Translations under genes and position numbers: made by a program | The notes under the pieces: model-generated | Seen by the model: the letters and a program-made list of their open reading frames with translations, nothing else | Databases searched by the model: none | What the model was told of the DNA's origin: nothing | Assembly (NCBI RefSeq): GCF_014196925.1 | Contig: NZ_JACIEN010000002.1 | Coordinates: forward strand, 1-64,000 | DNA: 64,000 bases | Direction: 5' to 3' | Source of the DNA: Chelatococcus caeni | Lineage (GTDB): Bacteria; Pseudomonadota; Alphaproteobacteria; Rhizobiales; Beijerinckiaceae | In this document: piece by piece, positions 8,083 through 54,066 of the stretch | Numbering within the stretch: position 1 is the first letter of the stretch | Layout: every line of letters begins with the position of its first letter

Positions 8083-8142
8083 GGGTGCTGCCTCGGCGTT
8101 CGGGGACGGCGCCCGGCGCGGGCGCCCGCGGCTGGCGCAGGT

Positions 8143-9327: not shown

Positions 9328-9542
9328 GACGGCCCCCCTCCAGAGTTTGGCGGCTGCCCGCGGCACCAGAGCAAAGGGGCCGAAGGAGCGCTCTTATCGC
9401 GACAGTCGCCCTACGCCACTAACGGAACATTGCAACAAACAGGTTAACGGTGCGCGGCAGCGGCGTCGAGCGTATCGACGCTTGCCCGTGGACAGGGCGC
9501 GCACCTTCCGGCATGTAACCGCCAATAAGGGAGGACGAAGGA

Positions 9543-10466: not shown

Positions 10467-10519
10467 GCTCGCCGCCACGGATGTTGATTCGCAAGGGGCC
10501 CGGTGGCAGGAGTTGCGGA

Positions 10520-10756
10520 ATGCAGACCTTCTTCGTCCAGATCAAGTGCAAGCTCGGCAAGACCTATGCGGTCGCCAGCGAGCTCGCCGACCGTGAGATC
10601 GCCTCGGAGATCTACTCGATCGCCGGCGACTACGACATCATCGCCAAGTTCCATGTCGACCGCGACGTCGACATCGGCCATTTCGTCGCCGAGAAGGTGC
10701 AGACCATCGACGACATCGCCGACACGCGCACCATCATCACCTTCAAGGCCTTCTGA
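10520..10756 (+). CDS. Stand-alone Lrp/AsnC ligand-binding (RAM) domain protein
   Basis: A 78-residue protein made of only the C-terminal RAM domain of Lrp/AsnC regulators, without the DNA-binding helix-turn-helix. The sequence MQTFFVQIKCKLGKTYAVAS, then EIYSIAGDYDIIAKFHVDRD and TRTIITFKAF, follows the beta-alpha-beta-beta-alpha-beta pattern with the GDYDIIAK core. Such proteins form oligomers that bind amino acids or other small effectors and may modify full Lrp proteins. The ATG at 10520 follows GGCAGGAGTTGCGGA, a good Shine-Dalgarno; the frame upstream merely overlaps dgoK. It starts 53 bases after dgoK and may be co-transcribed with it. Confidence 0.85.
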   Translation: MQTFFVQIKCKLGKTYAVASELADREIASEIYSIAGDYDIIAKFHVDRDVDIGHFVAEKVQTIDDIADTRTIITFKAF

Positions 10757-10758
10757 TT

Positions 10759-11187
10759 TCAGGCCGCGGCAGCGGTCGCGCGCGAATCCATCGCGCCGAG
10801 CCGCGCCGCGATGACGGCGGCGAGATGCCGCTGCCGGCGCTGCGAGCAGCGGTTCTGCGCCCGCACCACGGCCATCAGCTCGAGCGCGACCGCGGCGTCG
10901 AGCTGGCGGATATGCTGCGCCGTCAGGCCGCTCTCGCGCATCAGCGCCACGAGCCGGCGGCTGACCGGCCGCTGCTCCTCCTCCGGCAGATCCGCCAGCG
11001 ACATGATGATGAGCGCCCCGTGCAGGCGCACCAGACTGTCGGCGTTCTGCGGGTCGCGCGCGAGCCAGGCCCCGTAGGTGGCGCGCAGCAGGTCGTAGAT
11101 GACGGGGACGGCTCTCAGGATCGTGCGCAGTTCCCCGTCCCGCCCGGGAACGCGCAACTCGTCGTCGGACAAAGTCGGCAGCGACAT
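10759..11187 (-). CDS. Hypothetical helical protein
   Basis: A 142-residue protein that I do not recognise. It is rich in Leu, Ala and Arg, with predicted helices throughout (RTILRAVPVIYDLLRATYGA, RLVALMRESGLTAQHIRQLD) and no signal peptide, membrane segment or cysteine cluster; a single Cys is near position 115. Coding appears real: the frame uses G/C-rich third positions and the stop lies 2 bases beyond the stop of the convergent RAM-domain gene. The ATG at 11187 follows AGGAGGGTGCGCCG on the minus strand, a strong ribosome-binding site. Function unknown. Confidence 0.6.
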   Translation of the reverse strand: MSLPTLSDDELRVPGRDGELRTILRAVPVIYDLLRATYGAWLARDPQNADSLVRLHGALIIMSLADLPEEEQRPVSRRLVALMRESGLTAQHIRQLDAAVALELMAVVRAQNRCSQRRQRHLAAVIAARLGAMDSRATAAAA

Positions 11188-11281
11188 CGGCGCACCCTCC
11201 TTGTGACCCTGGAAGCGTGCGCCCCGATGGTTAACGAAAAGTTAACGGCACGGCCGCGCAGCCGTGCCTTACGCTACCTGC

Positions 11282-12766
11282 TCATCCGTGCGCGAGGCTT
11301 GCGAGCGTGGCGCGGGCGCCGTCCCGGTAGAGCCGCGCCAGGGCCTCGCTCACCGCGGCAAGGAAGCGCGGCTCGGCCGGCAGGTCGGCGCCGAACACCG
11401 CCTCGACGCCGGCGAGCGCCCTGGCGAGCGCGGCGGGGTCGCCGCCCGCGGACCGCGCGATCGCGGCAAGGTCCGCCGCCAGCGGGTCGCGCACGTCGAT
11501 GGCGTCGCCCTTCTCGTCCGTGCCCGTGACGTAGCGCATCCAGGCCGCCACGGCGAGAGCGTGGCGGGCGATGTCGGAGCCGGCCGCGAGCCGGTCGCGG
11601 ATCGTGCCCAGCAGGCGCTGCGGCAGCTTCTGCGAGCCGTCCATGGCGATCTGCCAGGTGCGGTGCTTGAGCGCCGGATTGCGGAAACGCTCGCGCAGGG
11701 AGCGCTTGTAGGCCTCCACGTCGGCACCGGGCGGGATCGTCAGCGTCGCCGTCGTGTCGTCCATGAGGGCGGCGACATAGGACGCGAGGCTCTCGTCCGC
11801 CATGGCCTCGGACACGGTCTGGTAGCCGGCGAGATAGCCGAGATAGGCGATGGCCGAGTGGCTGCCGTTGAGCAGGCGCAGCTTCATGGCCTCATAGGGC
11901 GCAACGTCCGTGACGAGCGTCGCCCCCACCGTCTCCCAGGCGGGGCGGCCGGAGGGGAAATGGTCCTCGATCACCCACTGGGTGAAGGGCTCGGTCATCA
12001 CCGGCCAGGCGTCGGCGACGCCGAGGCGCGCCGCCACGGCGGCCCTGTCCTCGTCGGTCGTCGCCGGCACGATGCGGTCGACCATGCTGTCCGGGCAGGC
12101 GATCTTGTCGCGCACGAAGGCGCCGAGGTCGGGCGAGACGAGCTCCGCGAAACGGGTGAGGATGCGGTGCAGCGTCCGGCCGTTCGACGGCAGGTTGTCG
12201 CACGACAGCACGGTGAAGGGCGCAAGGCCGAGGCTGCGGCGACGGGCGATGGCCGCGGCGAGGAAGCCGATGGCCGAGCGCGGGCGGTTGAGGTTGGCGA
12301 GGTCGTGCACCACGTCGGGGTGCTTCTCGTCGAGCCGCCCGGTCGCCGGATCGTGGCAATAGCCCTTCTCCGTCACCGTGAGGGTGACGACCTTCACGTC
12401 CGGATGGCTCATGCGCTCGACGAGCGCCGCCGGATCCTCCGGCGCCACCACGACCTCGCGGATGGCGCCGATGACGGCGAGCTTCTCGCCCTCGCCCGAG
12501 CGCACGGCGAGGGTGTAGAGCCCGTCCTGGGCCTTCAGCGCATCGCGCGTGTCGGGGCTGCGCAGGCTGGCGCCGACGATGCCCCATTGCTGGTCGCCGC
12601 CGGCGATGACCGCATCCGTGTAGGCCGCCTGGTGGGCGCGGTGGAAGGCGCCGATGCCGAGGTGGACGATGCCGGTCTTCATCGCCTTGCGATCATAGGC
12701 CGGGCGGGCGACATCGGGCGGCAGGTCCGGGAGGCGCGCAGTGTTGAGGCGGGCCGTCTGCGTCAC
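11282..12766 (-). CDS. uxuB: Mannitol dehydrogenase-family oxidoreductase, probable fructuronate/tagaturonate reductase
   Basis: Polyol-specific long-chain dehydrogenase that probably reduces D-fructuronate to D-mannonate (or tagaturonate to altronate) with NADH. The Rossmann part is IVHLGIGAFHRAHQAAYTDA, then WGIVGASLRSPDTRDALKAQ. VTLTVTEKGYCHD is a family signature, and LLNGSHSAIAYLGYLAGY is the C-domain motif. At 494 residues it is full length. The GTG at 12766 overlaps the uxaC stop by four bases (12763-12766), so the two are translationally coupled; this fixes the start, although the ATG at MKTGIVHLG is possible. UxuB and UxaB belong to the same family, so the substrate is not settled by sequence. 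Confidence 0.85.
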   Translation of the reverse strand: MTQTARLNTARLPDLPPDVARPAYDRKAMKTGIVHLGIGAFHRAHQAAYTDAVIAGGDQQWGIVGASLRSPDTRDALKAQDGLYTLAVRSGEGEKLAVIGAIREVVVAPEDPAALVERMSHPDVKVVTLTVTEKGYCHDPATGRLDEKHPDVVHDLANLNRPRSAIGFLAAAIARRRSLGLAPFTVLSCDNLPSNGRTLHRILTRFAELVSPDLGAFVRDKIACPDSMVDRIVPATTDEDRAAVAARLGVADAWPVMTEPFTQWVIEDHFPSGRPAWETVGATLVTDVAPYEAMKLRLLNGSHSAIAYLGYLAGYQTVSEAMADESLASYVAALMDDTTATLTIPPGADVEAYKRSLRERFRNPALKHRTWQIAMDGSQKLPQRLLGTIRDRLAAGSDIARHALAVAAWMRYVTGTDEKGDAIDVRDPLAADLAAIARSAGGDPAALARALAGVEAVFGADLPAEPRFLAAVSEALARLYRDGARATLASLAHG

Positions 12767-14184
12767 AGCTTGTAGGCCTCCTTGGCCAGGCGATAGGCGA
12801 GATCGTGGGCGAGCTCGTGCGCCTCGTCCTCGTCGAGGCGGTGGGTGACGACGAGCTCGGCGAGGAAGGCGCAGTCGACGCGACGCGCCACGTCGTGCCG
12901 GGCGGGGATCGACGGGAAGGCCCGCGTGTCGTCGTTGAAGCCGACGGTGTTGTAGAAGCCGGCCGTCTCGGTGACGAGCTCGCGGTAGCGGCGCATGCCC
13001 TCGGGGCTGTCGAAGAACCACCAGGCCGGGCCGAGCTTCAGGCACGGATAGTGCCCGGCGAGCGGCGCGAGCTCGCGCGAATAGGCGGTCTCGTCGAGCG
13101 TGAAGAGGATGATGGTGAGCTCGCGCTCGTTGCCGAAGCGGTCGAGCAGCGGCTTCAGCGCATGGACATAGTCGGTCGCGGCCGGGATGTCGGCACCCAT
13201 GTCGCGGCCGAAGCGGGCGAAGAGCCCGGCGTTGTGGTTGCGCATCGAGCCGGGGTGGATCTGCATGACGAGCCCGTCCTCGAGGCTCATCGCCGCCATC
13301 TCGGTCAGCATCTGGGCGCGGAAGAGCTCCGCATCCTCGCTCGTGACGTTGCCGTGCATGATGCGGGTGTAAAGCGCCTCGGCCTCGACGGGCGAGAGGT
13401 CCGCCGTGCGAGCGCTCGGATGGCCGTGGTCGGTCGAGGTGGCGCCCATGTCCTTGAAGAAGGCGCGGCGCTTGCGGTGGGCCTCGAGATAGCCGGCGAA
13501 GGTCGAGACGTCGCAGCCGGTCAGTTCGCCGAAGGCCTCGACATTGGCCCTGAAGCCGTCGAACTCGGGATCGACGACCGGGTCCGGCCGGTAGGCCGTG
13601 ACGACGCGCCCTTTCCAGCCGCTGTCGCGGATCGCCTTGTGGTGGACGAGCGGATCGAGCGGGCTCTCGGTGGTGGCGATGACCTCGATGTTGAAGCGCT
13701 CGAACAGGGCCCGCGGGCGATAGGCGGGCTCGGCCAGCCGCTCGGCGATGCGGTCGTAGTAGAGGTCGGCCGTCTCGGCGGAGAGCCGCACGTCGAAATC
13801 GAACAGCGTGGCGAAGGCGTGGTCGAGCCACGTGCGCGTCGGCGTGCCGCGGAAGAGATGGTATCGCTCGGCGAAGCGCCGCCAGATCCTGCGCCCGTCG
13901 GTCTCGACCTCGGCGCCGTCCTTCGTCGCGATGCCGAGATCCTCGAGCCGCACGCCCTGGCTGTGGAGCATGCGGAAGATGTAGTGGTCGGGCACGACGA
14001 AGAGGCGGGCGGGGTCCGGGAAGGGCTCGTTCTCGGCATACCAGCGCGGATCGGTGTGCCCGTGCGGGGAGACGATCGGCAGGTCCTTCACATGGGCATA
14101 GAGCCGGCGCGCCACGGCGCGTGCGGACGGATCGGCGGGAAAGAGGCGGTCCTCGTGGACGAGCGGCAGGCGGCCCTCGCGCAT
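12763..14184 (-). CDS. uxaC: Glucuronate/galacturonate isomerase
   Basis: Uronate isomerase of the amidohydrolase superfamily, converting D-glucuronate to D-fructuronate and D-galacturonate to D-tagaturonate, the first step of hexuronate catabolism. Visible marks are the metal-binding VSPHGHTDPRWYAENEPFPD near residue 30, VPDHYIFRMLHSQG, TWLDHAFATLFDFDVRL, HGNVTSEDAELFRAQML, MQIHPGSMRNHNAGLFARFG and FDSPEGMRRYRELVTE. Length 473 is normal. The ATG at 14184 is preceded by AGGAAAGGAAGTGCCG, a good ribosome-binding site; the open frame reads further upstream without family similarity. It leads a two-gene operon with the uxuB-like gene. Confidence 0.93.
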   Translation of the reverse strand: MREGRLPLVHEDRLFPADPSARAVARRLYAHVKDLPIVSPHGHTDPRWYAENEPFPDPARLFVVPDHYIFRMLHSQGVRLEDLGIATKDGAEVETDGRRIWRRFAERYHLFRGTPTRTWLDHAFATLFDFDVRLSAETADLYYDRIAERLAEPAYRPRALFERFNIEVIATTESPLDPLVHHKAIRDSGWKGRVVTAYRPDPVVDPEFDGFRANVEAFGELTGCDVSTFAGYLEAHRKRRAFFKDMGATSTDHGHPSARTADLSPVEAEALYTRIMHGNVTSEDAELFRAQMLTEMAAMSLEDGLVMQIHPGSMRNHNAGLFARFGRDMGADIPAATDYVHALKPLLDRFGNERELTIILFTLDETAYSRELAPLAGHYPCLKLGPAWWFFDSPEGMRRYRELVTETAGFYNTVGFNDDTRAFPSIPARHDVARRVDCAFLAELVVTHRLDEDEAHELAHDLAYRLAKEAYKL

Positions 14185-14311
14185 CGGCACTTCCTTTCCT
14201 GATAACGGCTTCAAGCCTTTTGACGAAAAGCGCCCCCCGATGGCGACGCCGCGCGTCGCGCGGCGAACCCTAACCAGCGGAGCAGCCGGTGTGAACTGCT
14301 TTCTCGGCGCC

Positions 14312-14325
14312 GTTTGAATCGATTT
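14312..14325 (-). promoter_or_regulatory. Shared motif upstream of uxaC, candidate regulator site
   Basis: On the uxaC sense strand this reads AAATCGATTCAAAC, 128 bases before the uxaC start. Nearly the same sequence (AAAACGATTCAAAT) occurs in the same orientation 42 bases before uxaA at 19944-19957. Both lie in otherwise G/C-rich sequence. It could be the operator of the GntR/FCD protein encoded next door. The match is short and was found by eye. Confidence 0.35.
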
Positions 14326-14414
14326 GGAAATAGCGCGCGCAGGCCGTCCGGGCAAGCCGACAGAGCGCGCCGGGGAGGAGCCGGCAGGCCGACGGCGCGG
14401 CTGTCCTTCAACCG

Positions 14415-15086
14415 TCAGCGCAGGCCGAGCGCACGGTTGCGGGCGTTGTCGATATGGGCCGAGAGGGCGGCCACGGCCTTCTGCGGATCGCGCGTCTCCA
14501 TGGCGGCGATGATGCCGAGATGCTCGCGCATCACCGGCGCCACGAGACCGTCGATTCGCACCAGCTCCTGCCGGATGAGGCGGATCTTGATGGAATTGAC
14601 GCGGTAGGCCTTGGTGATGATCTCGTTGCCGAGCGCATCGACCAGCATGTCGTGGAAGCCCCAGTCGACCGCCTGGCCCTCGGCGACGATTTCGGGCGTG
14701 TCGCCCTGCGCCTCGGCCCGCGCCAGCACATCCTCGTGCTGGCGGCGCACGGCGGCGAGCGTCTCGTCGGAGGCGGACTGCACGAACAGGTCCATGGCCC
14801 CGCGCTCCATGAAGAGGCGGAACTGGAAGGCGTCGCGGATGAGGTTGAGGTCGAGATGGGCGACCTGCATGCCGCGCTGCGGCACGGTCTTGATGAGGCC
14901 CTCGGCCTCGAGACGCGGGATGAGCTCGCGAATGGCGCCGAGCGGCAGGTCGGTCAGGGCCACGAGTTCGCGCTGGGAGATGAACTGGCCCGGCCGGACA
15001 TTGCGCGCGAGAAGGTGCTGCGTGAAGCTGTCATAGGCCTTCTCGCGCAGCTTGAGAGGGGCACCGTCGTCCGCTGGCCGGTCCAT
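14415..15086 (-). CDS. GntR-family regulator with FCD domain
   Basis: Transcription factor of the FadR subfamily: an N-terminal winged helix (residues ~10-75; ISQRELVALTDLPLGAIREL, EAEGLIKTVPQRGMQV) and an all-helical FCD effector domain (~85-215; RDAFQFRLFMERGAMDLFVQ, MREHLGIIAAMETRD). FCD regulators often bind sugar acids and repress hexuronate genes. The ATG at 15086 is preceded by GAGGAGGAGG on the minus strand, an excellent ribosome-binding site, so the long upstream extension of the frame is not real. It sits between uxaC-uxuB and the divergent TRAP operon, and probably controls both. Length 223 is typical. Confidence 0.88.
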   Translation of the reverse strand: MDRPADDGAPLKLREKAYDSFTQHLLARNVRPGQFISQRELVALTDLPLGAIRELIPRLEAEGLIKTVPQRGMQVAHLDLNLIRDAFQFRLFMERGAMDLFVQSASDETLAAVRRQHEDVLARAEAQGDTPEIVAEGQAVDWGFHDMLVDALGNEIITKAYRVNSIKIRLIRQELVRIDGLVAPVMREHLGIIAAMETRDPQKAVAALSAHIDNARNRALGLR

Positions 15087-15401
15087 CTCGTCCTCCTCCT
15101 CAATGTCTTCGGCGTCGGGGCCGATGGCGCGCCCTGGCCTCGCGATCCCCATAAAGCCGGCGACGGCATCGGCCAAGGCCCTTCGGGCGGAGCGCCCCGG
15201 ACAGGGCCCCAGGGACAGGCCGTCGGGCAGAAGCGCCACGCGTGCCGAGGACCTGCGCAGGCCCTCGACGGCTCTTTTTCTCGGCTGACATGTTAGCTGG
15301 TTGTTTTTTGTTTGCAAGCATTCCACCGCTTCGGCAATATGCGGCCGATCGCGCCCGGAACGGGCGCTCAAACAAGCCGTTATCCCGGGAGGATCGTCAC
15401 C
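15087..15401. other. Divergent intergenic region between GntR gene and TRAP operon
   Basis: These 315 bases hold no convincing gene. They must carry the promoters of the GntR gene (minus) and dctP (plus). An AT-rich stretch at ~15288-15325 (TGTTAGCTGG, TTGTTTTTTG, TTTGCAAGC) stands out from the G/C-rich surroundings and is the likely control area. GGGAGGATCGTCACC just before 15402 is the dctP ribosome-binding site. I found no clear palindromic operator. Confidence 0.5.
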
Positions 15402-16400
15402 ATGGCATTTTCGCTGAGCCGCCGGCTCGTCCTCGGCCTTGCCCTCTCCTGCCCGCTCATCGCCGGCCCGGCGCTCGCCGCCGATCCGGTCAAGCTGCGC
15501 ATCTCGACGCCCGCCGTCGAAGCCGACTGGCATGCCAAGATGCTCCCCGTCTTCAAGGAGGAGCTCGAGAAGCGGGCGCCCGGCCAGTTCGACGTCGAGA
15601 TCCACCTCAACGCCACGCTGTTCAAGCAGGGCACCGAGCCGGCCGCCATGCAGCGCGGCAATCTCGAGATGGCGATGATCTCGGCCTTCGACATCGCCAA
15701 GCAGATCCCCGAGTGGTCGATCTTCACCGCCGGCTATCTGATCCGCGACCCCGAGCACCAGCAGAAGGTCTTCGCGAGCGACATCGGCGAGGAGATGTAC
15801 AAGCTCGTCGAGGACAAGATGGGCATCAAGGTGCTCTCCGTCGGCTATCTCGGCACGCGCCAGCTCAACCTGCGCATCGAGAAGGAGGTGAAGACCCCGG
15901 CGGACCTCGCAGGCGTCAAGCTGCGCATGCCGGGCTCCGACACCTGGCTGTTCCTCGGCAAGGCGCTCGGCGCCAACCCGCTGCCGCTCGCCTTCGGCGA
16001 GATCTACACGGCGCTGCAGACCGGCGCCATCGACGGCCAGGACAACCCGCTGCCGACCGTGCGGGCCGCGAAGTTCTACGAGGTGACCAAGCAGATCGTG
16101 CTCACCGACCACCTCGTCGATTCCATCTTCCTCTCGCTCGCCGGCGCGACCTGGAACAAGCTCGACGACAAGCAGAAGGAAGCCGTGCTGGAAGCCGCCA
16201 AGGCCGCCGTGGCCTTCAACAACGAGGGGCGCATCGGCGAGGAGAGGCAGCTCGCGGCCGATTTCGCGCAGCAGGGCCTCAAGGTCTACCGGCCCGACGT
16301 CGAGGCCTTCCGCACCCATGTGCAGAAGGCCTACCTCGAATCGGAATTCTCCAAGACCTGGCCCAAGGGCATGGTCGAACGCATCAACGCGGTGAAGTAA
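15402..16400 (+). CDS. dctP: TRAP transporter substrate-binding protein (DctP family)
   Basis: Periplasmic solute receptor of a tripartite ATP-independent transporter. The N-terminal signal peptide (MAFSLSRRLVLGLALSCPLI, cleavage near ALAAD) precedes a mature domain beginning PVKLRISTPAVEADWHAK. Typical TRAP marks are TPADLAGVKLRMPGSDTW with the carboxylate-binding Arg, and LPLAFGEIYTALQTGAIDGQ followed by DNPLPTV. Length 332 is usual. The ATG at 15402 follows GGGAGGATC, whereas an upstream in-frame ATG would place 30 residues before the signal peptide. Clustered with uxaC, uxuB and uxaA, it probably binds a hexuronate or related sugar acid; the ligand is inferred only from context. Confidence 0.9.
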   Translation: MAFSLSRRLVLGLALSCPLIAGPALAADPVKLRISTPAVEADWHAKMLPVFKEELEKRAPGQFDVEIHLNATLFKQGTEPAAMQRGNLEMAMISAFDIAKQIPEWSIFTAGYLIRDPEHQQKVFASDIGEEMYKLVEDKMGIKVLSVGYLGTRQLNLRIEKEVKTPADLAGVKLRMPGSDTWLFLGKALGANPLPLAFGEIYTALQTGAIDGQDNPLPTVRAAKFYEVTKQIVLTDHLVDSIFLSLAGATWNKLDDKQKEAVLEAAKAAVAFNNEGRIGEERQLAADFAQQGLKVYRPDVEAFRTHVQKAYLESEFSKTWPKGMVERINAVK

Positions 16401-16427
16401 GAGCAACCGGCCGGGGGGCCCGGTGCT

Positions 16428-16536
16428 CCCCTCTGCCCTCTCCCGCAGCGTGGAGGGCAGAGGGGGCAGCCTGAAGGCGCCATCGCTGCGTGTCACGCTC
16501 CCCGCCCCTTCTCCTCCCCGCAAGGGGGAAGGGAGG
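16428..16536. repeat. Two palindromic elements between dctP and dctQ
   Basis: The first is a perfect 13-bp inverted repeat, CCCCTCTGCCCTC (16428-16440) and GAGGGCAGAGGGG (16453-16465), with a 12-base loop. The second is an imperfect hairpin at ~16504-16536 (CCCCTTCTCCTCCCCGC, then AAGGGGGAAGGGAGG). Both resemble the dispersed elements at 2271-2438 and 30791-30820. Lying between the receptor gene and the membrane genes, they could protect or terminate the dctP transcript so that more receptor than permease is made. Confidence 0.7.
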
Positions 16537-16579
16537 ATGCCGACTGCCCCAAAACAGACCCTGCGTACCGGAGGCACCC

Positions 16580-17086
16580 TTGTCCGTTGTGGTGAAACGG
16601 CTGCGTTTCCTGGCGACGATCGCGGCGGCGCTCGGCTTCATGGCCATGTTCGCCGCCTTCATCCTGCAGATCTTCACGCGCTACGTCCTCAACGACCCGA
16701 CGGCCTGGACGCAGGAAGCGACGCTGATCTCATATGTCTGGGTGGTCTTCTGGTGCGCGGCCTTCCTGACGCGCGACAAGGACCAGATCACCTTCGACAT
16801 GGTGGTGCTCGCAAGCCCGCGCCGCGTGCAGCGCTGGCTCGCCTTCGTCTGCGCGCTCGTGACGCTGGGCGCCTTCCTCGCCGCCCTGCCGGCGACGGTG
16901 GACTGGATCAGCTTCATGCGCATCGAGAAGACACCGGTCCTCGGCCTGCGCTACGACATCCTCTATTCCATCTTCATCGTCTTCGTCGTCTGCGTCGTCA
17001 TCCGCCAGGGCCTGCGCGTCGCGCGCCTCCTTTCGCGCCGCTGGGGCGAGGTGCTTGACGAACGTCCTTCCGGTTTCAGCGAATGA
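16580..17086 (+). CDS. dctQ: TRAP transporter small permease (DctQ family)
   Basis: Four-helix inner-membrane subunit of the TRAP transporter. Membrane segments are visible at LATIAAALGFMAMFAAFILQ, ISYVWVVFWCAAFLT, WLAFVCALVTLGAFLAALPA and ILYSIFIVFVVCVVIRQG. The family pattern RYVLNDPTAWTQEATLI follows helix 1. The start is taken as TTG 16580 because GGAGG lies 5 bases before it; an in-frame GTG at 16589 is the alternative. Sequence upstream of it in frame is hairpin DNA without similarity. It overlaps dctM by four bases (17083-17086). Length 168 is typical. Confidence 0.85.
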   Translation: MSVVVKRLRFLATIAAALGFMAMFAAFILQIFTRYVLNDPTAWTQEATLISYVWVVFWCAAFLTRDKDQITFDMVVLASPRRVQRWLAFVCALVTLGAFLAALPATVDWISFMRIEKTPVLGLRYDILYSIFIVFVVCVVIRQGLRVARLLSRRWGEVLDERPSGFSE

Positions 17087-18378
17087 GCGCATCCTTCGTC
17101 TTCCTGCTCGCCGCCTTCTTCGGGCTGGCGGCCATCGGCATGCCCATCGCCTATGCCATGTTCGTGGCGGCGATCGGCTATCTCTTCGTCACCGGCAAGG
17201 ACGTCGGCCTCTTCTCCGAGCAGATCCTCAACAATCTCGTCGACAGCTTCGTGCTGCTCGCCGTGCCGCTGTTCATCCTCGCCGCCAACCTGATGAACGC
17301 CGGCGGCGTCTCCGAGCGCATGCTGCTCTTCTGCCAGGCGCTCGTCGGGCGCTTCCGCGGCGGGCTCGCCCACGTCAACGTGGTCGCCAGCATCATCTTC
17401 GCGGGCATGTCGGGCTCGGCCATCGCGGATGCGGCGGGCGTCGGCAAGCTGCTCACGGAGATGATGGTCAAGACGAAGCGCTATACGCCAGGCTTCGCGG
17501 CCGCCATCTCGGCCGCCTCCTCGACCATCGGGCCGATCATCCCGCCGTCGATCCCGATGGTGCTCTATGCGCTCGTCTCGGATACCTCGGTCGGCTACCT
17601 CTTCCTCGGCGGCATCATTCCCGGCCTCATCATGGCCGCCGCGCTGATGGGGGCCATCGCCTGGGTCGCCCGCAAGCGCGACTTCCCGCGCGACGACACC
17701 GTGCCGATACGCGAATTGCCCCGCGCCACCGTGCGCGCCTTCCCGGCGCTCATGCTGCCGGTCATCCTGCTCTACGGCATCTACGGCGGGGCCGCGACGC
17801 CGACCGAGGCCGCCTCGCTCGCGGCGCTCTATGCGCTCATGCTCGCCGGCCTCGTCTATCGGTCGCTGACAATCCGGGAGGCCTTCCGGCTCTTTGCCGA
17901 ATCCGCGCGCTCGACCACCGTCGTCGCGCTCATCATCGCCGGCGCCTTCATTTTCAACTACATCGTCGCGAGCGAGAACATCCCGCAGCTCGTCGCCGGC
18001 TGGATGCGCGGGGTGGACGTGCATCCGCTCGTCTTCCTGCTGCTCGTCAACCTGCTGTTCCTTGCGCTCGGCTGCCTGTTCGACGCGACGACCATGCTGC
18101 TCGTGCTGGTGCCGCTGTTCCTGCCGGCGGCGCGGGAAATGGGCATCGACCTCGTGCATTTCGGCGTCGTCATCGTCGTCAACATCATGCTGGGGCTGGT
18201 CACGCCCCCCTATGGCGTGCTGTTGTTCGTGATGAACGGACTGACGGGCATCCCCCTGCGCGACATCATCCGCGAGATGTGGCTGTTCCTCTTCATTCTC
18301 CTGGCCGCGCTCCTCCTGATGATCCTCGTGCCGGAGACGGTGCTGTGGCTGCCGCGCCAGTTCGGCTACACCGGTTAG
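17083..18378 (+). CDS. dctM: TRAP transporter large permease (DctM family)
   Basis: The main transport subunit, a ~12-helix inner-membrane protein that uses the sodium or proton gradient. Hallmarks are IGMPIAYAMFVAAIGYLFV, GGLAHVNVVASIIFAGMSGS followed by AIADAAGVG, ISAASSTIGPIIPPSIPMVL, GGAATPTEAASLAALYALML and FGVVIVVNIMLGLVTPPYGV. Length 431 is standard. Its ATG overlaps the dctQ stop (ATGA), showing translational coupling. Eleven bases after its stop the aldo/keto reductase gene begins, so transporter and enzymes probably form one operon. Confidence 0.95.
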   Translation: MSASFVFLLAAFFGLAAIGMPIAYAMFVAAIGYLFVTGKDVGLFSEQILNNLVDSFVLLAVPLFILAANLMNAGGVSERMLLFCQALVGRFRGGLAHVNVVASIIFAGMSGSAIADAAGVGKLLTEMMVKTKRYTPGFAAAISAASSTIGPIIPPSIPMVLYALVSDTSVGYLFLGGIIPGLIMAAALMGAIAWVARKRDFPRDDTVPIRELPRATVRAFPALMLPVILLYGIYGGAATPTEAASLAALYALMLAGLVYRSLTIREAFRLFAESARSTTVVALIIAGAFIFNYIVASENIPQLVAGWMRGVDVHPLVFLLLVNLLFLALGCLFDATTMLLVLVPLFLPAAREMGIDLVHFGVVIVVNIMLGLVTPPYGVLLFVMNGLTGIPLRDIIREMWLFLFILLAALLLMILVPETVLWLPRQFGYTG

Positions 18379-18389
18379 GGAGGATATCG

Positions 18390-19424
18390 ATGAGCCTGGC
18401 GACACGCACGCTCGGACGCAGCAACCTCAAGGTCACGGTCCTCGGCTTCGGCACGGCGCCGCTTGGCGACCTCTATGCGAGGCTCGACGATGCCACGGCC
18501 GTCGCCACCGTCGAGGCCGCGCTCGCGGCCGGCATCACGCTCCTCGACACCTCGCCGCACTACGGCAACGGCCTTGCCGAGCACCGCTGCGGCACGGCGC
18601 TCCGGCGCCACGAGCGCAGCGACGTCGTGCTCTCGACCAAGGTCGGGCGGGTGATGGATCCGCGCCAGCGGCCGGCGACGCCAGCGCGGAGCGACGTGAT
18701 CTCGCCCGGCTTCGCCGGCGGCCTGCCGCACAAGGCCTCCTTCGATTATTCCTACGACGGCGCCATGCGCTCCTTCGAGCAGTCGCTGCTGCGCCTCGGC
18801 ACCGACCGCATCGACGTGCTGCTCATCCATGACGTCGACGTCTGGACCCATGGCGCCGACGGCATCGAGGCCCGCTTCAAGGAGGCGATGGACGGCGCCT
18901 ACCGGGCCCTCGCCGACCTGCGCGACCAGAAGGTGATCAAGGCCATCGGCGTCGGCATCAACGAGGCCGACATGTGCGAGCGCTTCGCCCGCGCCGGCGA
19001 CTTCGACTGCATGCTGCTCGCGGGGCGCTATTCGCTCCTGGAGCAGCCGGCGCTCGAGGGCTTCCTGCCGCTGGCGCAGGAAAAGAACATCGGCGTCATG
19101 CTCGGCGGCGTGTTCAACTCCGGCATCCTCGCCACGGGCGCGGTGCCGGGCGCTCGCTACAACTACGCCCCCGCGCCCGATGCCGTCATGGACAAGGTGC
19201 GCCGCATCGAGGCCGTGTGCCGGGCCCATTCCGTCCCGCTCGCCCATGCGGCGCTGCACTTCGCCCTCGGCCATCCCGCGGTCGCGAGCCTCGTGCTCGG
19301 CGGCGTCGCGCCCGAGGAGGTGAGCCGCAACGTCGCCGCCTTCGCCGCCCCCCCGCCCGCGGGGCTGTGGAGCGACTTGAAGAGCGAGGGCCTGCTCGCT
19401 CCCGACGCGCCGACGCCCGCCTGA
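18390..19424 (+). CDS. Aldo/keto reductase, possible aldose/L-fucose 1-dehydrogenase
   Basis: NAD(P)-dependent TIM-barrel oxidoreductase. The family pattern is clear: TLGRSNLKVTVLGFGTAPLG, DTSPHYGNGLAEHRCGTALR with the catalytic Asp and Tyr, STKVGRV with the Lys, and RLGTDRIDVLLIHDVD. It belongs to the subgroup that includes D-threo-aldose (L-fucose) 1-dehydrogenase and pyridoxal 4-dehydrogenase, which oxidise the anomeric or aldehyde carbon. The next gene encodes a FucU-type mutarotase, which supports a sugar substrate. The ATG at 18390 follows GGGAGGATATCG. Length 344. The exact substrate is not shown by sequence. Confidence 0.83.
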   Translation: MSLATRTLGRSNLKVTVLGFGTAPLGDLYARLDDATAVATVEAALAAGITLLDTSPHYGNGLAEHRCGTALRRHERSDVVLSTKVGRVMDPRQRPATPARSDVISPGFAGGLPHKASFDYSYDGAMRSFEQSLLRLGTDRIDVLLIHDVDVWTHGADGIEARFKEAMDGAYRALADLRDQKVIKAIGVGINEADMCERFARAGDFDCMLLAGRYSLLEQPALEGFLPLAQEKNIGVMLGGVFNSGILATGAVPGARYNYAPAPDAVMDKVRRIEAVCRAHSVPLAHAALHFALGHPAVASLVLGGVAPEEVSRNVAAFAAPPPAGLWSDLKSEGLLAPDAPTPA

Positions 19425-48982: not shown

Positions 48983-50443
48983 ATGGACGCACGGCCGGAC
49001 GAGAACATCGAGAGCGAGCGCGCGCCGGCGGGCGACCCGCGTGGGTCCGTCCGTTTCGGCCTGTCGGCGCGCCTGCTCGTGCTCACCGGCCTCTTCGTCA
49101 TGCTGGCGGAAGTGCTGATCTATGTGCCCTCGGTCGCCAACTTCCGCCGCAACTGGCTGAACGACCGGCTCGCCGCCGCCCAGGTGGCAGGCGTCGTGCT
49201 GGAGGCCGTGCCGCCCGGCGGCGTCCCCTCCGGCTTCGAGGAGAAGCTGCTCGCCGGCGTCGGCGCCCGGGCCGTGGCGGTGCGCGTCGGCGGTGCGCGG
49301 CGCCTGCTCGCCACCGCCGAGATGCCGCCCGAGGTCGCCCGCGTCATCGACCTGCGCGACGCCCACTGGGCGACGCTGATCGCCGACGCCTTCGAGACGC
49401 TCGTCTTTCCGGCAGACGGGCCGGTGCGCGTCATCGGGGCCGGCAAGGGGGGAGCGGATTTCGTCGAGATCGTGATGGACGAGCGGCCGCTCAGGGTGGC
49501 GATGCTCACCTTCTCGCGCAACATCCTCATCCTGTCGCTCGCCATCTCCGGCATCACGGCCTTCCTCGTCTATCTCGCGCTCCACCTCATCATCGTACGC
49601 CCGGTGCGCCGGCTCGCGGCCAATGTCACGGCCTTCGAGCACAACCCGGAGGATGCGGAGCGGGTCATCCGCCCCTCGGAGCGGCGCGACGAGATCGGCG
49701 AGGTCGAGCGCGCGCTCGCCCTAATGCAGGAGACGCTGTCGCGCGAGCTCCTGCAGAAGAAGCACCTCGCCAACCTCGGCCTCGCCGTCAGCAAGGTGAA
49801 CCACGACCTGCGCAACCTGCTCGCCTCGGCCCAGCTCCTCTCCGACCGGCTGAGCCAATTGTCGGACCCGACGGTGCGGCGCGTCGCGCCCAAGCTCATC
49901 GCGACGCTGGGGCGCGCCATCGCCTTCTGCGAGGCGACGCTCGCCTACGGCCGCGCGGCCGAGCCGCAGCCGCGCCGGCGCGTCGTCAGGCTGGCGCCGC
50001 TGGTGCGCGACCTCGCCGATTTCCTCGACCTTGCCGGCAACGGCATCACCTTCGTCGTCGACATGGATGAGGACATCACCGTCGACGCCGACCCGGACCA
50101 GCTCTCGCGCATCCTCATCAACCTCGGCCGCAACGCCGTGCAGGCCCTGGCCCAGGCGGGCGCCGGCCCCTCCGCGCCGACGCTCACCATCGCCGCCCGG
50201 CGCGACGGCCGCTCGACCGTGATCCGCGTCGGCGACAACGGCCCGGGCGTGCCGGCCAAGGCGCGCGAGCACCTGTTCGAGGCCTTCCAGGGCACGAGCC
50301 GGCGCGGCGGCGTCGGCCTCGGCCTCGCCATCACGGCCGAGCTCGTCGCCCTGCACGGCGGCCACATCGTGCTCGAGGAGGAGGGCCCCGGCGCCACCTT
50401 CCGCATCCACCTGCCGGACCGCACGAACGGCAACGGCGCCTGA
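48983..50443 (+). CDS. HAMP-domain sensor histidine kinase (orphan)
   Basis: Inner-membrane sensor kinase of 486 residues. Two transmembrane helices (LLVLTGLFVMLAEVLIYVPS and ILILSLAISGITAFLVYLAL) enclose a ~130-residue periplasmic domain. HAMP starts at HLIIVRPVRRLAANVTAFE. The HisKA-type box is LAVSKVNHDLRNLLASAQLL with the phospho-accepting His, followed by the ATPase: N box SRILINLGRNAVQAL, G1 VGDNGPGVPAKAREHLFEAF and G2 RGGVGLGLAITAELVAL. No response-regulator gene is adjacent. It begins 43 bases after the flavoprotein gene with AGGGCGACGAAGACGGAGC upstream, so it may belong to that operon and watch the same stress. Confidence 0.9.
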   Translation: MDARPDENIESERAPAGDPRGSVRFGLSARLLVLTGLFVMLAEVLIYVPSVANFRRNWLNDRLAAAQVAGVVLEAVPPGGVPSGFEEKLLAGVGARAVAVRVGGARRLLATAEMPPEVARVIDLRDAHWATLIADAFETLVFPADGPVRVIGAGKGGADFVEIVMDERPLRVAMLTFSRNILILSLAISGITAFLVYLALHLIIVRPVRRLAANVTAFEHNPEDAERVIRPSERRDEIGEVERALALMQETLSRELLQKKHLANLGLAVSKVNHDLRNLLASAQLLSDRLSQLSDPTVRRVAPKLIATLGRAIAFCEATLAYGRAAEPQPRRRVVRLAPLVRDLADFLDLAGNGITFVVDMDEDITVDADPDQLSRILINLGRNAVQALAQAGAGPSAPTLTIAARRDGRSTVIRVGDNGPGVPAKAREHLFEAFQGTSRRGGVGLGLAITAELVALHGGHIVLEEEGPGATFRIHLPDRTNGNGA

Positions 50444-50650: not shown

Positions 50651-50727
50651 GCGCCCGTAGCTCAGCTGGATAGAGCACCAGACTACGAATCTGGGGGTCA
50701 GAGGTTCGAATCCTTTCGGGCGCGCCA
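50651..50727 (+). tRNA. tRNA-Arg (anticodon ACG)
   Basis: A full cloverleaf of 77 bases. Acceptor stem GCGCCCG pairs with CGGGCGC, then G and an encoded CCA. D-arm GCTCAGCTGGATAGAGC, anticodon arm CCAGA-CTACGAA-TCTGG with ACG at the anticodon position, and T-arm AGAGG-TTCGAAT-CCTTT are all intact. ACG would be read as ICG after deamination, decoding CGU/CGC/CGA arginine codons. A foreign-looking gene begins 176 bases downstream, consistent with use of the 3' end as an integration target. Confidence 0.97.
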
Positions 50728-50903
50728 TTTTTCCCGTTCACGACCAGGGCGACATTTAGGCCGCTATTGAAGCCGCCGCACTGCGAGTTCGACTGAAGGC
50801 TCTACTCCCTTCCGCGAATGTGAATCAAAAGCCCTTTTGCGAACTTACTTCAGTTGGTGCTAGCATTCGCCTGCGAGCGTTAAAACGCTGCTGGGGGACT
50901 GCT

Positions 50904-52028
50904 ATGACCGAAGATTTCCGCCAAAAGTTAACGTTGTTTGCAACGAGAGCCGTTGAGCTAGCGCCTCGTTGCGCGAACGAAGAGAGCACGAAATTATTCC
51001 TTATACTCCCCTTCTTGAGTGTTCTTGGATATAATTGCCAGGATCCTCATGAGGTTTGCCCTGAGCATAGCGCCGACTTCTCTGATAAATATAAGAATAA
51101 AGTCGATTTTGCCATCTTAAAGAAAGACCAACCCGTTATAGCAATTGAATGTAAGTGCTGCGGTTCAGCTTTAAAAGACGAGAGGGGACAGTTGAGGGCC
51201 TATTTTAATGCCGCCCCGACAGTAAAGATGGGAGTTCTTACGGACGGAATCGTTTATGAATTTTATGCGGATTCAGATGAACCGAATATGATGGATCAAT
51301 CTGCATTCCTAATTGTTGATTTACGACAAATTTCGAAAGGGAAACTGGAAGATTCCGTACTAGATGGGTTAATAGGTCTTCAGAAGAATTCCTTTGATCC
51401 GGAAAATATTGGCGCAGAAGCCAAGAGAAAGCTTGTATTTCAGAGCATAGTACAGCAATTGACCGCTCTTTCTGAGGCACCATCTGAGCCATTCACTCGT
51501 ATGTTGCTCCAAAGTGCCGGACTTAGTCATGTTAGGGCTAAGGCCTTGACTGAATATCAGGACATTATTCGCTCCGCATTTCGCGAATTTATCAATCTAA
51601 GAATTCTGAAACGCCTCGATCTGCCAACAAAAGAAACCGAAAAACCGAGCGGTGAGCCGATCGTTGTCGACAACTCGCCTTCTATGAGCAAGATTGAAGA
51701 ACGTATTATCACGACAGATTCAGAGATCGCTATTTTCAATTATACAAAACAGCGACTTGCGTTCTTGGTTAAGGATGAAAAGCTTTTTCGAGAAATAGAA
51801 AGAATTAATTACAAGGACTATCAAGGGAAATTTGTCGTGTTCTATCGCAGAGAACGCAAAGGGCGCTTGTTTGATTTCATTGAGGGTGATACGCCAAAAT
51901 TCCGCTTCTCATTCGGCGATGCCGGAGAAATTACAACGGACGATTTAACTGATGGGAAAATCGACGCAGCCCTTCTCGCAGCATTCCTAAAGAGGGTCGA
52001 GGAAAATACCCGCACTGATTCTAATTAA
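50904..52028 (+). CDS. HsdR N-terminal-domain nuclease-like protein (COG4748 type), horizontally acquired
   Basis: A 374-residue protein with a PD-(D/E)xK nuclease domain like the N terminus of type I restriction subunit HsdR. Key residues line up: Asp-68 in KNKVDFAIL, Glu-82 and Lys-84 in VIAIECKCC, and a Q-x3-Y motif at RGQLRAY (96-100) as in HsdR. The C-terminal ~110 residues (from SKIEERIITTDSEIAIFNYT) resemble the tail found in restriction-endonuclease-like COG4748 proteins. There is no helicase, methylase or specificity subunit. Base use is strikingly AT-rich (Lys, Ile, Asn, Phe with A/T third positions) against G/C-rich neighbours. The ATG at 50904 follows GGGGGACTGCT; earlier in-frame codons look non-coding. 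Possible lone defence nuclease; function unproven. Confidence 0.8.
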   Translation: MTEDFRQKLTLFATRAVELAPRCANEESTKLFLILPFLSVLGYNCQDPHEVCPEHSADFSDKYKNKVDFAILKKDQPVIAIECKCCGSALKDERGQLRAYFNAAPTVKMGVLTDGIVYEFYADSDEPNMMDQSAFLIVDLRQISKGKLEDSVLDGLIGLQKNSFDPENIGAEAKRKLVFQSIVQQLTALSEAPSEPFTRMLLQSAGLSHVRAKALTEYQDIIRSAFREFINLRILKRLDLPTKETEKPSGEPIVVDNSPSMSKIEERIITTDSEIAIFNYTKQRLAFLVKDEKLFREIERINYKDYQGKFVVFYRRERKGRLFDFIEGDTPKFRFSFGDAGEITTDDLTDGKIDAALLAAFLKRVEENTRTDSN

Positions 52029-52056
52029 CTAAAGCTAACGCCTTATATCCTCTTGT

Positions 52057-52090
52057 ATGCGGCTAGCCTTCTGTCGCTAGCCGCATATTT
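52057..52090 (+). terminator. Hairpin after the nuclease gene, probable terminator
   Basis: Perfect 11-bp stem ATGCGGCTAGC (52057-52067) and GCTAGCCGCAT (52076-52086), with an 8-base loop and an ATTT tail. It starts 29 bases after the nuclease stop and has the same AT-rich setting, so it probably belongs to the inserted segment. Confidence 0.7.
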
Positions 52091-52116
52091 AAGCTCTGTT
52101 TCCAAACCTATCGTCA

Positions 52117-52215
52117 TCAATTGGGGCAGCGCCCCCTGTCGGACGCCCTGCCGACGTGCCAGTGACCTAGATTGGCGGAATTGACGAAGCCATCGAATTC
52201 GAGGCGACCGCCATT
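52117..52215 (-). pseudogene. Fragment of a low-molecular-weight protein-tyrosine-phosphatase gene
   Basis: On the minus strand an open stretch reads RLEFDGFVNSANLGHWHVGR, then ASDRGRCPN and a stop. This aligns with LDLLVDSAGTGHWHVGKAPD of the intact phosphatase at 53593-54066, and 16 bases (52149-52164 and 53919-53934) are identical. The P-loop and the C-terminal part are missing and a stop precedes the fragment, so it is a remnant. It lies just past the AT-rich insertion, between it and the GNAT gene. Confidence 0.7.
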
Positions 52216-52274
52216 CTACGCCCATACGGCAGACGCGCCGCGCGCCGCCCCTCACACGCTCACAGCGCGCCGCG

Positions 52275-52961
52275 TCAATCGTCGGCGCGCTCAATCACGG
52301 CGACCTGCATCGTCGTGCGCAAGGTGAAGCCGATCGACGCGTAGAGGCGGATGGCGGCCGTGTTGCTGGCGAAGGCGTGCAGGTAGGGCCGGTCTCCACC
52401 TTCCGCGATCCGTCCCGCCACGTAGCGCGACAGCAGGCGGCCGAGGCCGCGGCCCCTTGCTTCGGAATGGGTGCAGACGCCGCTGAGTTCGACGTGACCC
52501 GGCTGGGCCATGCGCTCGCCGGCCATGGCGACCAGCCGGCCGTTGTCGCGCACGCCCCAGAAGCGGCCGATGTCGAGCGCCCTCAGCGTGAACGGGCCGG
52601 GCTCGGTGAGCGCGGCGAGCGCCAGCATGTCCGCGGCATCCGCCGGCCCGAGCTTCACAATCCTCTCGTCCTCGAAGGGTGCGTGGCCGCCGTCGGCCAC
52701 CATCTGGACGCCTTCGGCTCGCCGGATGGCGCGGAGGCTCGCGGGCAGGCGGATCTCGCCGGCCTGCAGGAGGATTGCCGTGTCGCCCGGCTCCAGCAGG
52801 GTCCCGAGGGCCTCGAGGCTTTCCGGGCTGTCGTCGGTGCTTGCCGCGAACGGCACGATCGAGGGGCGATATCGCCGCGCCTTCGCATCTCCGTCGGCGA
52901 AGGCCTCGTGCCGCGAGGTCAGCGAAGCCCAGGCCGGGCGATCGAGCTCATGCGCGGTCAT
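52275..52961 (-). CDS. GNAT-family N-acetyltransferase
   Basis: A 228-residue acetyltransferase. The first ~105 residues are a variable N-terminal half; the C-terminal GNAT domain has ELSGVCTHSEARGRGLGRLL with the acetyl-CoA pyrophosphate loop (R-G-x-G-x-L), then LHAFASNTAAIRLYASIGFT, typical of FR47/RimI-like members. The substrate is unknown. Its ATG overlaps the MarR gene stop (52958-52961), so the two are co-translated and the regulator probably controls it. Confidence 0.85.
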   Translation of the reverse strand: MTAHELDRPAWASLTSRHEAFADGDAKARRYRPSIVPFAASTDDSPESLEALGTLLEPGDTAILLQAGEIRLPASLRAIRRAEGVQMVADGGHAPFEDERIVKLGPADAADMLALAALTEPGPFTLRALDIGRFWGVRDNGRLVAMAGERMAQPGHVELSGVCTHSEARGRGLGRLLSRYVAGRIAEGGDRPYLHAFASNTAAIRLYASIGFTLRTTMQVAVIERADD

Positions 52962-53461
52962 TTCTCTCGGTCCTCCCCGGCACGCGCCGTCAGCGGCCGT
53001 CGCGCGAGCCCGTCTTCGATGCTGCCGAGATGCGCCAGAAGCTCGTCGCCGAATCCCGCGCAAAGATCGGCCACCGCCTTCTCGACGCGGAGCCAGACCC
53101 CCTCCCGCGCGGCAGCCACGAAGGCCTCCCCGTCCGGCGAGAGGGAGACGAGCCGCCGGCGGCCGTCTTCCGCCGCGGTGGTGACCGCGACGAGGCCGAT
53201 CCCGGCGAGCTGGCCGACAGCCCGGGTGATCCCCGGCTGCGCGACGCCGAGCAGCGCCGCGAGCTCGCCCACGGTCAGCGCGCCGTGCTTCGACAGCGCC
53301 GCGAGGAGCGGATGCTGGCCCGCGGCCACCGGCGGCGCCAGCTCGCTCAGGATCGGCTGCGCCTCCGCCTGCAGCCGCTCGCCGAGCCGCTTCAACCGGC
53401 TGCCGAGCGTCATCAGGCCAAGGGAGCGGAGCGTGTCTTCGGGTGAGGATTTATTTAACAT
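52958..53461 (-). CDS. MarR-family transcriptional regulator
   Basis: Winged-helix regulator of 167 residues. LGSRLKRLGERLQAEAQPIL opens the dimer helix; QHPLLAALSKHGALTVGELA and ALLGVAQPGITRAVGQLAGI are the recognition region, and EDGRRRLVSLSPDGEAFVAA is the wing. ATG 53461 is preferred: the codons further upstream are AT-rich promoter-like DNA (repeats of GTTATATA and TAACATGTTA, 53456-53480), and a TTG start there would itself be a TTGACA box. The AT-rich inverted sequence TAACATGTTA covers the start codon, so autoregulation is likely. Operon with the GNAT gene. Confidence 0.85.
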   Translation of the reverse strand: MLNKSSPEDTLRSLGLMTLGSRLKRLGERLQAEAQPILSELAPPVAAGQHPLLAALSKHGALTVGELAALLGVAQPGITRAVGQLAGIGLVAVTTAAEDGRRRLVSLSPDGEAFVAAAREGVWLRVEKAVADLCAGFGDELLAHLGSIEDGLARRPLTARAGEDREK

Positions 53462-53592
53462 GTTATATATCGTGTTATATAAATAACAGCATGTCAAGGT
53501 GGAGACCCGAGCGGCCGGGCATCATCTTGCGATCCTTGGCCCGAACGGACCGCTGACGAGTCCATCCCCCGGCACGGCAGTTTCCGCCCGCC

Positions 53593-54066
53593 TCACAAAA
53601 CTCCCGACAGCCGCGCCACGAGCCCCCGCGCGCCCGCCGTCACATCCGCCCAGGTCGTGTCGAAGCCGGCCGCTTCGCCGTAATAGGGATCGGCCACCGC
53701 CTCGCCGGCGCGGCCGGGAACGTGGTCGAGCAGCAGGCTCACTTCGGCGCCTGCGCCTGCCGGGCGCAGCGCGAGAAGCCGGGCGAGATTGTCGTGGTCG
53801 AGCGCGACGACATGGGTGAAATGCAAAAAGTCCTCGCGCACCACCTGTCGGGCGCGATAGCCGCTGATGTCGATGCCGTTGCGGGCGGCCACGGCCTGCG
53901 CCCGCCTGTCGGGCGCCTTGCCGACGTGCCAGTGCCCCGTGCCGGCCGAATCGACGAGGAGGTCGAGCCCTGCCCGCAACGCCTCGGCCCGCATGGCCGC
54001 CTCCGCCAGCGGCGAGCGGCAGATGTTGCCGAGGCAGACGAAGAGCACGGCGGGTCTATCGGGCAT
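53593..54066 (-). CDS. Low-molecular-weight protein-tyrosine phosphatase
   Basis: Cytosolic phosphatase of 157 residues, the standard length. The catalytic P-loop is VLFVCLGNICRSPLAEAAM (C-x5-R-S), followed by DSAGTGHWHVGKAPDRRAQA and the general acid in VADPYYGEAAGFDTTW. ATG 54066 precedes the P-loop by eleven codons; the upstream extension is not conserved. It resembles eukaryotic-type LMW-PTPs more than exopolysaccharide-linked Wzb proteins. A decayed partial copy lies at 52117-52215. Confidence 0.93.
   Translation of the reverse strand: MPDRPAVLFVCLGNICRSPLAEAAMRAEALRAGLDLLVDSAGTGHWHVGKAPDRRAQAVAARNGIDISGYRARQVVREDFLHFTHVVALDHDNLARLLALRPAGAGAEVSLLLDHVPGRAGEAVADPYYGEAAGFDTTWADVTAGARGLVARLSGVL

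Follow-up and report, generated by a model that had tools for sequence, protein, structure and literature searches.

Stand-alone HsdR_N nucleases and hotspots for integration at tRNA genes are both kinds of element that are already known. Phage endonucleases of the PHROG 4225 family are stand-alone genes of this type, and related nuclease domains form the N-terminal part of type I HsdR subunits. In a phage-resistant Campylobacter strain, a lone gene for an HsdR N-terminal protein was noted that is not present in the sensitive strain compared with it, and the available text of that report calls its role 'unclear' (PMC8713573). The accessible portions of other sources place COG4748 among the restriction endonucleases of Tn7-like cargo (PMC8649781) and in a table of a Sinorhizobium prophage (PMC12429752), and treat other HsdR_N proteins or lists (PMC8432527, PMC7251935). 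A Salmonella prophage defence protein was considered as a further relative and rejected, since it is an unrelated ATPase according to the part of the source at hand (PMC12724215). No functional study of the stand-alone HsdR_N family was found in a non-exhaustive literature search.

Two described systems are relevant to the genomic position of such genes. The superinfection-exclusion gene ltp of Streptococcus phage TP-J34 is part of the lysogeny module, where it follows the integrase gene and precedes those for the metallo-proteinase and then the repressor. Transcription of ltp occurs in the prophage state, as given in excerpts of that study (PMC3952083). At E. coli hotspot 37, no mobile element can be detected in 68% of the occupied cases, although integrase or recombinase genes are present in many, as reported in the portion of that work available (PMC10121019).

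The locus examined here lies in a window of 64,000 nucleotides from Chelatococcus caeni, which is the whole stretch of DNA that was analysed. Its relevant features are as follows.

48,983 to 50,443, forward strand: open reading frame of a sensor-kinase-like gene (assigned by eye), the left flank outside the insert, kept in three congeners (G001, G002 and G003)
50,651 to 50,727, forward strand: tRNA-Arg(ACG) found by ARAGORN, with the left border of the insert just past its 3′ end
50,731 to 52,225: variable insert (the island) of about 1.5 kb, placed by the GC profile, with its right border taken from the G001 comparison
50,904 to 52,028, forward strand: predicted stand-alone HsdR_N-type nuclease gene, 374 amino acids, over the cut-off for Pfam PF04313 and PF13588 and matching PHROG 4225
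52,056 to 52,087: perfect 12-nt inverted repeat located 27 nt past the nuclease stop codon, a possible terminator (repeat search)
52,129 to 52,167: stretch identical at 36 of 40 positions to 53,898 to 53,937 (sequence comparison)
52,275 to 52,961, reverse strand: GNAT acetyltransferase gene (Pfam FR47/Acetyltransf_1, from a search of 52,278 to 52,955), the right flank outside the insert, kept in G001 and G003

The original prediction, made from the sequence alone, described an abrupt change in base use directly after the tRNA and an AT-rich gene with many Lys, Ile and Asn codons, and both descriptions agree with the measured composition. In 500-base windows, the GC fraction drops from 0.71-0.75 to 0.41-0.48 past approximately 50.75 kb and is 0.72 again from 52.25 kb. 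The nuclease gene has a GC fraction of 0.43 (GC3 0.42) compared to 0.71-0.74 for nine neighbouring genes, and its codon-adaptation-like index is 0.17 versus 0.61-0.81 for the same number of neighbours. Lys, Asn and Ile together make up 0.18 of its residues compared to 0.05-0.10 in neighbouring proteins, which is an excess of about 1.8-fold or more. Furthermore, all ten of the lowest-GC 1125-base segments of the window overlap this gene. The other island open reading frames of at least 80 amino acids are a longer, GTG-initiated form of the nuclease frame and two antisense frames of 84 and 83 residues. It had also been predicted that the gene lacks a restriction-modification partner or integrase beside it, and none was found in the open reading frame list or by profile search. 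The same two sources gave no phage gene within the insert, and the nearest tyrosine-integrase match on the contig is at 324,860, some 273 kb away. A promoter scan detected no promoter-like site before the nuclease gene, and the inverted repeat after it was not called by the terminator scan, which requires more T nucleotides after the stem.

Classical attachment sites (attL and attR) were rejected as the borders of the insert because the end of the tRNA is not repeated on the right, where the two sequences share nothing longer than 7 nt. Two additional observations concern the sequence at and beyond this border. The stretch of about 40 bases towards the right border of the insert (52,129 to 52,167) resembles part of a phosphatase-like gene, assigned by eye, that is 1.7 kb downstream. 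Separately, the region from 53,446 to 53,497 is AT-rich and partly palindromic and lies just upstream of a gene at 52,958 that is MarR-like as judged by eye, and it is possibly the operator of that gene.

Comparison of the same tRNA site in three congeners reveals that the region between the flanks is variable. The G001 sequence matches the window up to position 50,730 and then again from 52,226, and that of G003 matches up to about 50,735 and then again from 52,304. Between the conserved flanks, which are the sensor-kinase-like gene with the tRNA on one side and the GNAT gene on the other, there are 1418 bases in G001 and 1303 bases in G003. These inserts exhibit no better-than-chance similarity to the insert of the window or to each other (best E value 0.4 or worse), and both fall below their flanks in GC fraction (approximately 0.42-0.62 in G001 and 0.47-0.62 in G003, per 100 bases). 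In G001 (site at locus L033, 4292 to 5808), the insert carries genes for a SocA/Panacea-domain protein (PF13274, 2.3e-16) and for a partner without a Pfam match, and the stop codon of the partner gene is located directly at the insert border. The Panacea domain acts as an antitoxin against many toxins, according to the part of the source at hand (PMC8832971), and the two G001 genes probably form a toxin-antitoxin pair. The G003 insert carries short open reading frames with no Pfam match over the cut-off. The nuclease gene is absent from all three congeners, so none holds it with a host-like base composition. An empty site, which the original prediction had proposed to look for in relatives, was not found among them either, and both congeners that keep the two flanks carry other inserts. 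The presence of different cargo at the same site in two congeners indicates that the site is a hotspot. Several features that mark a tRNA-integrated island are present, namely a border at the tRNA 3′ end, foreign composition and variable occupancy in relatives. Two others, an integrase gene and flanking direct repeats, were not found. A further 22 tRNA-Arg(ACG) sites in the family had synteny too low for calling inserts, and were left out of the evidence. As in E. coli hotspot 37, the site is fixed, its cargo varies among genomes and the mode of movement is unclear, whereas here the tRNA 3′ end is directly followed by inserts of one or two genes (PMC10121019, from the portion available).

A candidate for the enzyme that acts at this site is found in the remaining congener, G002 (locus L035, 2509 to 4182), where a serine recombinase gene directly follows the tRNA and its reading frame, on the other strand, enters the tRNA gene by 45 nt. 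G002 has no match at this site to the right flank shared by the window, G001 and G003, and it is the only one of the four species in which a recombinase gene was seen there. Serine recombinases act on very short core sites. Such sites would fit the observation that the tRNA end does not recur where the window's insert stops on the right.

The predicted protein scores 35 bits against PF04313 (HSDR_N; cut-off 25.1) and is also over the cut-off for HSDR_N_2. These were the only Pfam matches, with no helicase or translocase domain, and NCBIfam and PADLOC gave no match to the window protein. The PHROG 4225 'endonuclease' profile matches residues 3-322 at 4.2e-67, and the phage proteins of this family share the same nuclease motif. 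Every member of alignment A1, which comprises 30 of an initial 33 sequences, contains HSDR_N. Restriction or methyltransferase models of PADLOC match some of these members, including a type IIG model in 10 of 30 (best 5.6e-9), and those models share such a nuclease domain. The residues D68, E82, K84 and the Q96-x3-Y100 pair are at the positions originally given for them. Together with E26, these residues are invariant in A1 (30/30), in alignment A3 (63/63, from 64 sequences) and in every fetched homologue (113/113 rows), so the catalytic residues are not lost in the family. D68 forms part of one of the two search patterns used to retrieve the viral rows, so its conservation is partly selected for, and the other five residues are outside both patterns. 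The AlphaFold2 model of the full protein (pLDDT 90.8, pTM 0.63) divides into the following parts.

Residues 1 to about 165: nuclease domain
Residues about 169 to 238: helical region
Residues 241 to 263: disordered segment
Residues about 272 to 374: C-terminal alpha/beta domain (pLDDT 92.0 when modelled alone)

A Foldseek search had been proposed as a check on the protein. In the PDB, the top matches of the window protein are PD-(D/E)XK proteins (3ijm, 3h1t, EcoR124I HsdR and BpuSI), but all are weak and none reaches an E value of 0.001 or better. Among predicted viral proteins there was one good fold match, itself named HsdR N-terminal. Searches of solved structures by sequence gave no match for the single protein, and a profile gave one chance-level match to Cas4. 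The C-terminal domain has no confident fold relative in the PDB, the best being frataxin at E 0.19. Collectively, the domain matches and conserved motif suggest that the island gene probably encodes a stand-alone PD-(D/E)XK enzyme that cuts DNA.

At E values of 1e-5 or lower, relatives of the nuclease occur in 18 phage records (out of 50,697) and in 49 plasmid records (out of 72,556). Viral contigs contain at least 475 relatives among the 600 candidate stretches listed, and peptide patterns derived from the single window protein found no relative in these contigs. Gene context was inspected in 14 of these 18 phages. Ten of the inspected records are annotated, including those of two closely similar streptococcal phages. 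In eight of these 10 phages, a named repressor or regulator is located just upstream on the same strand, with no more than two small genes between, and in six an integrase is located downstream on the same strand. Porphyromonas phage 019b exhibits neither arrangement, the genes neighbouring the nuclease in Lacticaseibacillus phage P7.1 are unnamed, and in one annotated phage the nuclease gene lies elsewhere in the genome, close to HicAB and structural genes. In some phages the nuclease gene adjoins a gene for an M78-type protease. For example, the order in Streptococcus phage Javan316 is integrase, nuclease, M78-type protease and HTH repressor.

A test that does not depend on gene names was applied to those viral loci whose contigs are 15 kb or longer (49 of 80) by searching with PF00589 and PF01381 under distance limits that were picked after the annotated phages had been inspected. 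An HTH_3 domain is encoded within 2.5 kb upstream on the same strand in 34 of the 49 records (mean of 3.7 for random placement), and a tyrosine integrase within 6 kb downstream on the same strand in 17 (mean of 2.9). Both are present in 16 records, compared to a mean of 0.8. None of 2000 trials of random placement in the same contigs reached the observed 34, 17 or 16. When the set is reduced at 85% protein identity, 42 records remain, of which 29 have HTH_3, 15 the integrase and 14 both, the random control applying to the 49-record set. The integrase count is likely low because many contigs are fragmentary and the search covered tyrosine rather than serine integrases. Thus, many relatives of the nuclease are genes of prophage lysogeny modules.

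Like the window gene, the relatives inspected usually stand alone. Neither in the 10 annotated phages nor in the seven plasmids inspected of the 49, for which gene tables are incomplete, does the nuclease have an annotated methylase or specificity gene as its immediate neighbour. Plasmid relatives are sometimes near defence-like genes, such as SIR2 on one plasmid and a pair encoding an AAA ATPase and a UvrD-type helicase on another. On this latter plasmid, from Variovorax (L089, 4998 to 9970), the pair directly follows the nuclease relative and is reminiscent of Gabija.

Among 59 other related genomes searched, the sole match (G027) is weak and partial, and among 384 other genomes of the class there are six matches at 1e-10 or lower, of which only that in G220 is close (50% identity). 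Copies that are 61-64% identical occur in four named genomes, of Rhodoblastus, Roseococcus, Acidiphilium and Oleispirillum. In a phylogenetic tree, the window protein, the G220 protein and these four form a fully supported group of six that a long branch separates from the phage rows, although the tree program warned that the distant row L012 may join this group falsely. The C-terminal domain of the group is unlike that of the phage rows and lacks a motif common in phage members of PHROG 4225. Also unlike these phage genes, the window gene is outside any recognisable prophage, with no lysogeny module around it and no adjoining phage gene. Two of the four named copies have a mobile context. The Rhodoblastus copy adjoins a tape-measure gene, and the Roseococcus copy has primase-type genes nearby, an integrase about 14 kb away and a tRNA-Arg(TCT) about 1.8 kb away. 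The Acidiphilium and Oleispirillum copies have ordinary-looking neighbours with no integrase or mobile context nearby. In the Roseococcus locus (L005, 3210 to 12,997), the genes near the nuclease relative are of the D5-type primase and Toprim kinds, and the locus is perhaps a satellite-like element.

With a probability of roughly 0.55, we interpret the locus as a horizontally acquired, single-gene exclusion cargo at a tRNA-Arg(ACG) hotspot, belonging to a nuclease family that occurs in the lysogeny modules of many temperate phages. Horizontal transfer would have brought this one gene to the 3′ end of the tRNA, perhaps through an integrative element that has since decayed, with help in trans from an element like that of G002, or by recombination between the conserved flanks. 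The protein would be made in the resting cell, as it would be in a lysogen together with the repressor, and its PD-(D/E)XK domain would cut incoming phage or plasmid DNA. Because there is no helicase, specificity subunit or methylase partner, target choice and self-tolerance would have to be properties of this one protein and probably reside in its helical and C-terminal domains. Host DNA might be spared by reading of modification, by DNA structure, or because the enzyme is off until triggered. The slot of the relatives, between the repressor, metallo-proteinase and integrase, is by analogy that of the known superinfection-exclusion gene ltp. However, Ltp is not a nuclease but a lipoprotein that stops DNA from being injected, which makes the analogy one of position only (PMC3952083, from the excerpts available). 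Also to be set against an exclusion function are the 15 of 49 viral records without an upstream repressor and the 32 of 49 without a detected tyrosine integrase in range. Further points against it are the missing PADLOC and NCBIfam matches, the lack of a promoter-like site and of phage genes, integrase or att repeats in the insert, the two named relatives without a mobile context, and the separate branch and C-terminal domain of the window's group. Given the phage contexts of many relatives, a proposed defence or exclusion role is nevertheless better grounded than it was from reading the sequence. The original proposal of a minimal defence or selfish island survives insofar as the island is foreign, tRNA-bounded and carries a lone nuclease with an intact motif, but this solitary state is not exceptional, as it is usual among the relatives inspected. 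The nuclease therefore need not be the stump of a restriction-modification system.

Another alternative is a link to type I restriction. The weak fold matches include two HsdR proteins, that of EcoR124I and a fragment from Vibrio, and the window gene is the only one in the genome that is over the curated cut-off for PF04313. A single type I system was recognised in the genome, at locus L200 of contig C1, with HsdR, HsdM and HsdS genes side by side, and a spare nuclease subunit might in principle serve its HsdM and HsdS in trans. However, that system has its own full-length HsdR of 1178 amino acids (PADLOC REase_I, 7e-246) with helicase and EcoEI_R_C domains, encoded directly upstream of HsdM, whose HSDR_N match of 3.6e-4 is below the cut-off. 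The window protein, at 374 amino acids, has no translocase of its own and no HsdM or HsdS neighbours, and service in trans is close to refuted. That the gene is a missing or stray HsdR subunit of a type I enzyme is ruled out by the lack of a helicase and by the HsdR that the type I system already owns. Locus L200 (G000:C1:722000-741500) contains a defence cluster at 7592 to 18,959, in which HsdR, HsdM and HsdS are followed by Zorya genes of the ZorA, ZorB and ZorC types (PADLOC). An integrase match is present at C1:728779-729141.

Three other explanations concern how the nuclease acts, or whether it still does. It may be a modification-dependent, type IV-like enzyme that cuts foreign-modified DNA, which would account for the missing methylase and would be a special case of the exclusion cargo. 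The lack of annotated methylase or specificity genes directly adjacent to the phage and plasmid relatives is consistent with this, as are the additional domains, which in the model could possibly read DNA. Pfam identifies no known modified-base reader domain in the protein, the C-terminal fold is without a confident relative, and Klebsiella phage KpF5 carries a putative DNA methylase about 2.8 kb from its nuclease gene on the opposite strand, leaving this version somewhat unlikely. A suicide nuclease, silent until infection and then cutting DNA of any origin as an abortive-infection system or toxin would, could equally dispense with a methylase, and both the toxin-antitoxin-like Panacea pair at the same site in a congener and the M78-type protease gene adjoining some phage relatives point in this direction. 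No antitoxin or sensor gene accompanies the gene in the window, and its relatives are alone in most contexts inspected, so we regard this mechanism as unlikely. Finally, the gene could have no current function and be all that is left of a prophage or satellite that inserted at the tRNA and then decayed, as might be expected from its AT-rich, unadapted codons and the lack of a promoter-like site, integrase or other phage gene. Decay is harder to reconcile with an intact 374-residue frame that keeps all six motif residues, and with the inverted repeat past its stop codon. Moreover, the inserts of similar size but with other genes in two congeners suggest an exchange of cargo beyond decay alone, making a mere remnant rather improbable.

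Under the preferred interpretation as exclusion cargo, what is added to the known kinds is the lysogeny-slot pattern of the relatives, the presence of different small inserts at one site within a genus, and the finding that a type I partner can be ruled out. Public records often name genes of this family 'type I restriction endonuclease', which masks the stand-alone state of those examined and the placement of many in a phage lysogeny slot. A more far-reaching and tentative proposal, to which we give somewhat less than even odds, is that the family is a widespread one-protein exclusion system, a nuclease found between repressor and integrase in temperate phages of several bacterial phyla, that distinguishes self from non-self without a methylase, by means of an undescribed C-terminal domain, and that it escapes into chromosomal hotspots to form minimal defence islands of a single gene. 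If the family does exclude phages, a single gene would constitute a complete and portable defence with built-in self-tolerance and a candidate domain for it. The hotspot itself shows that very small inserts exchange at one tRNA inside a genus.
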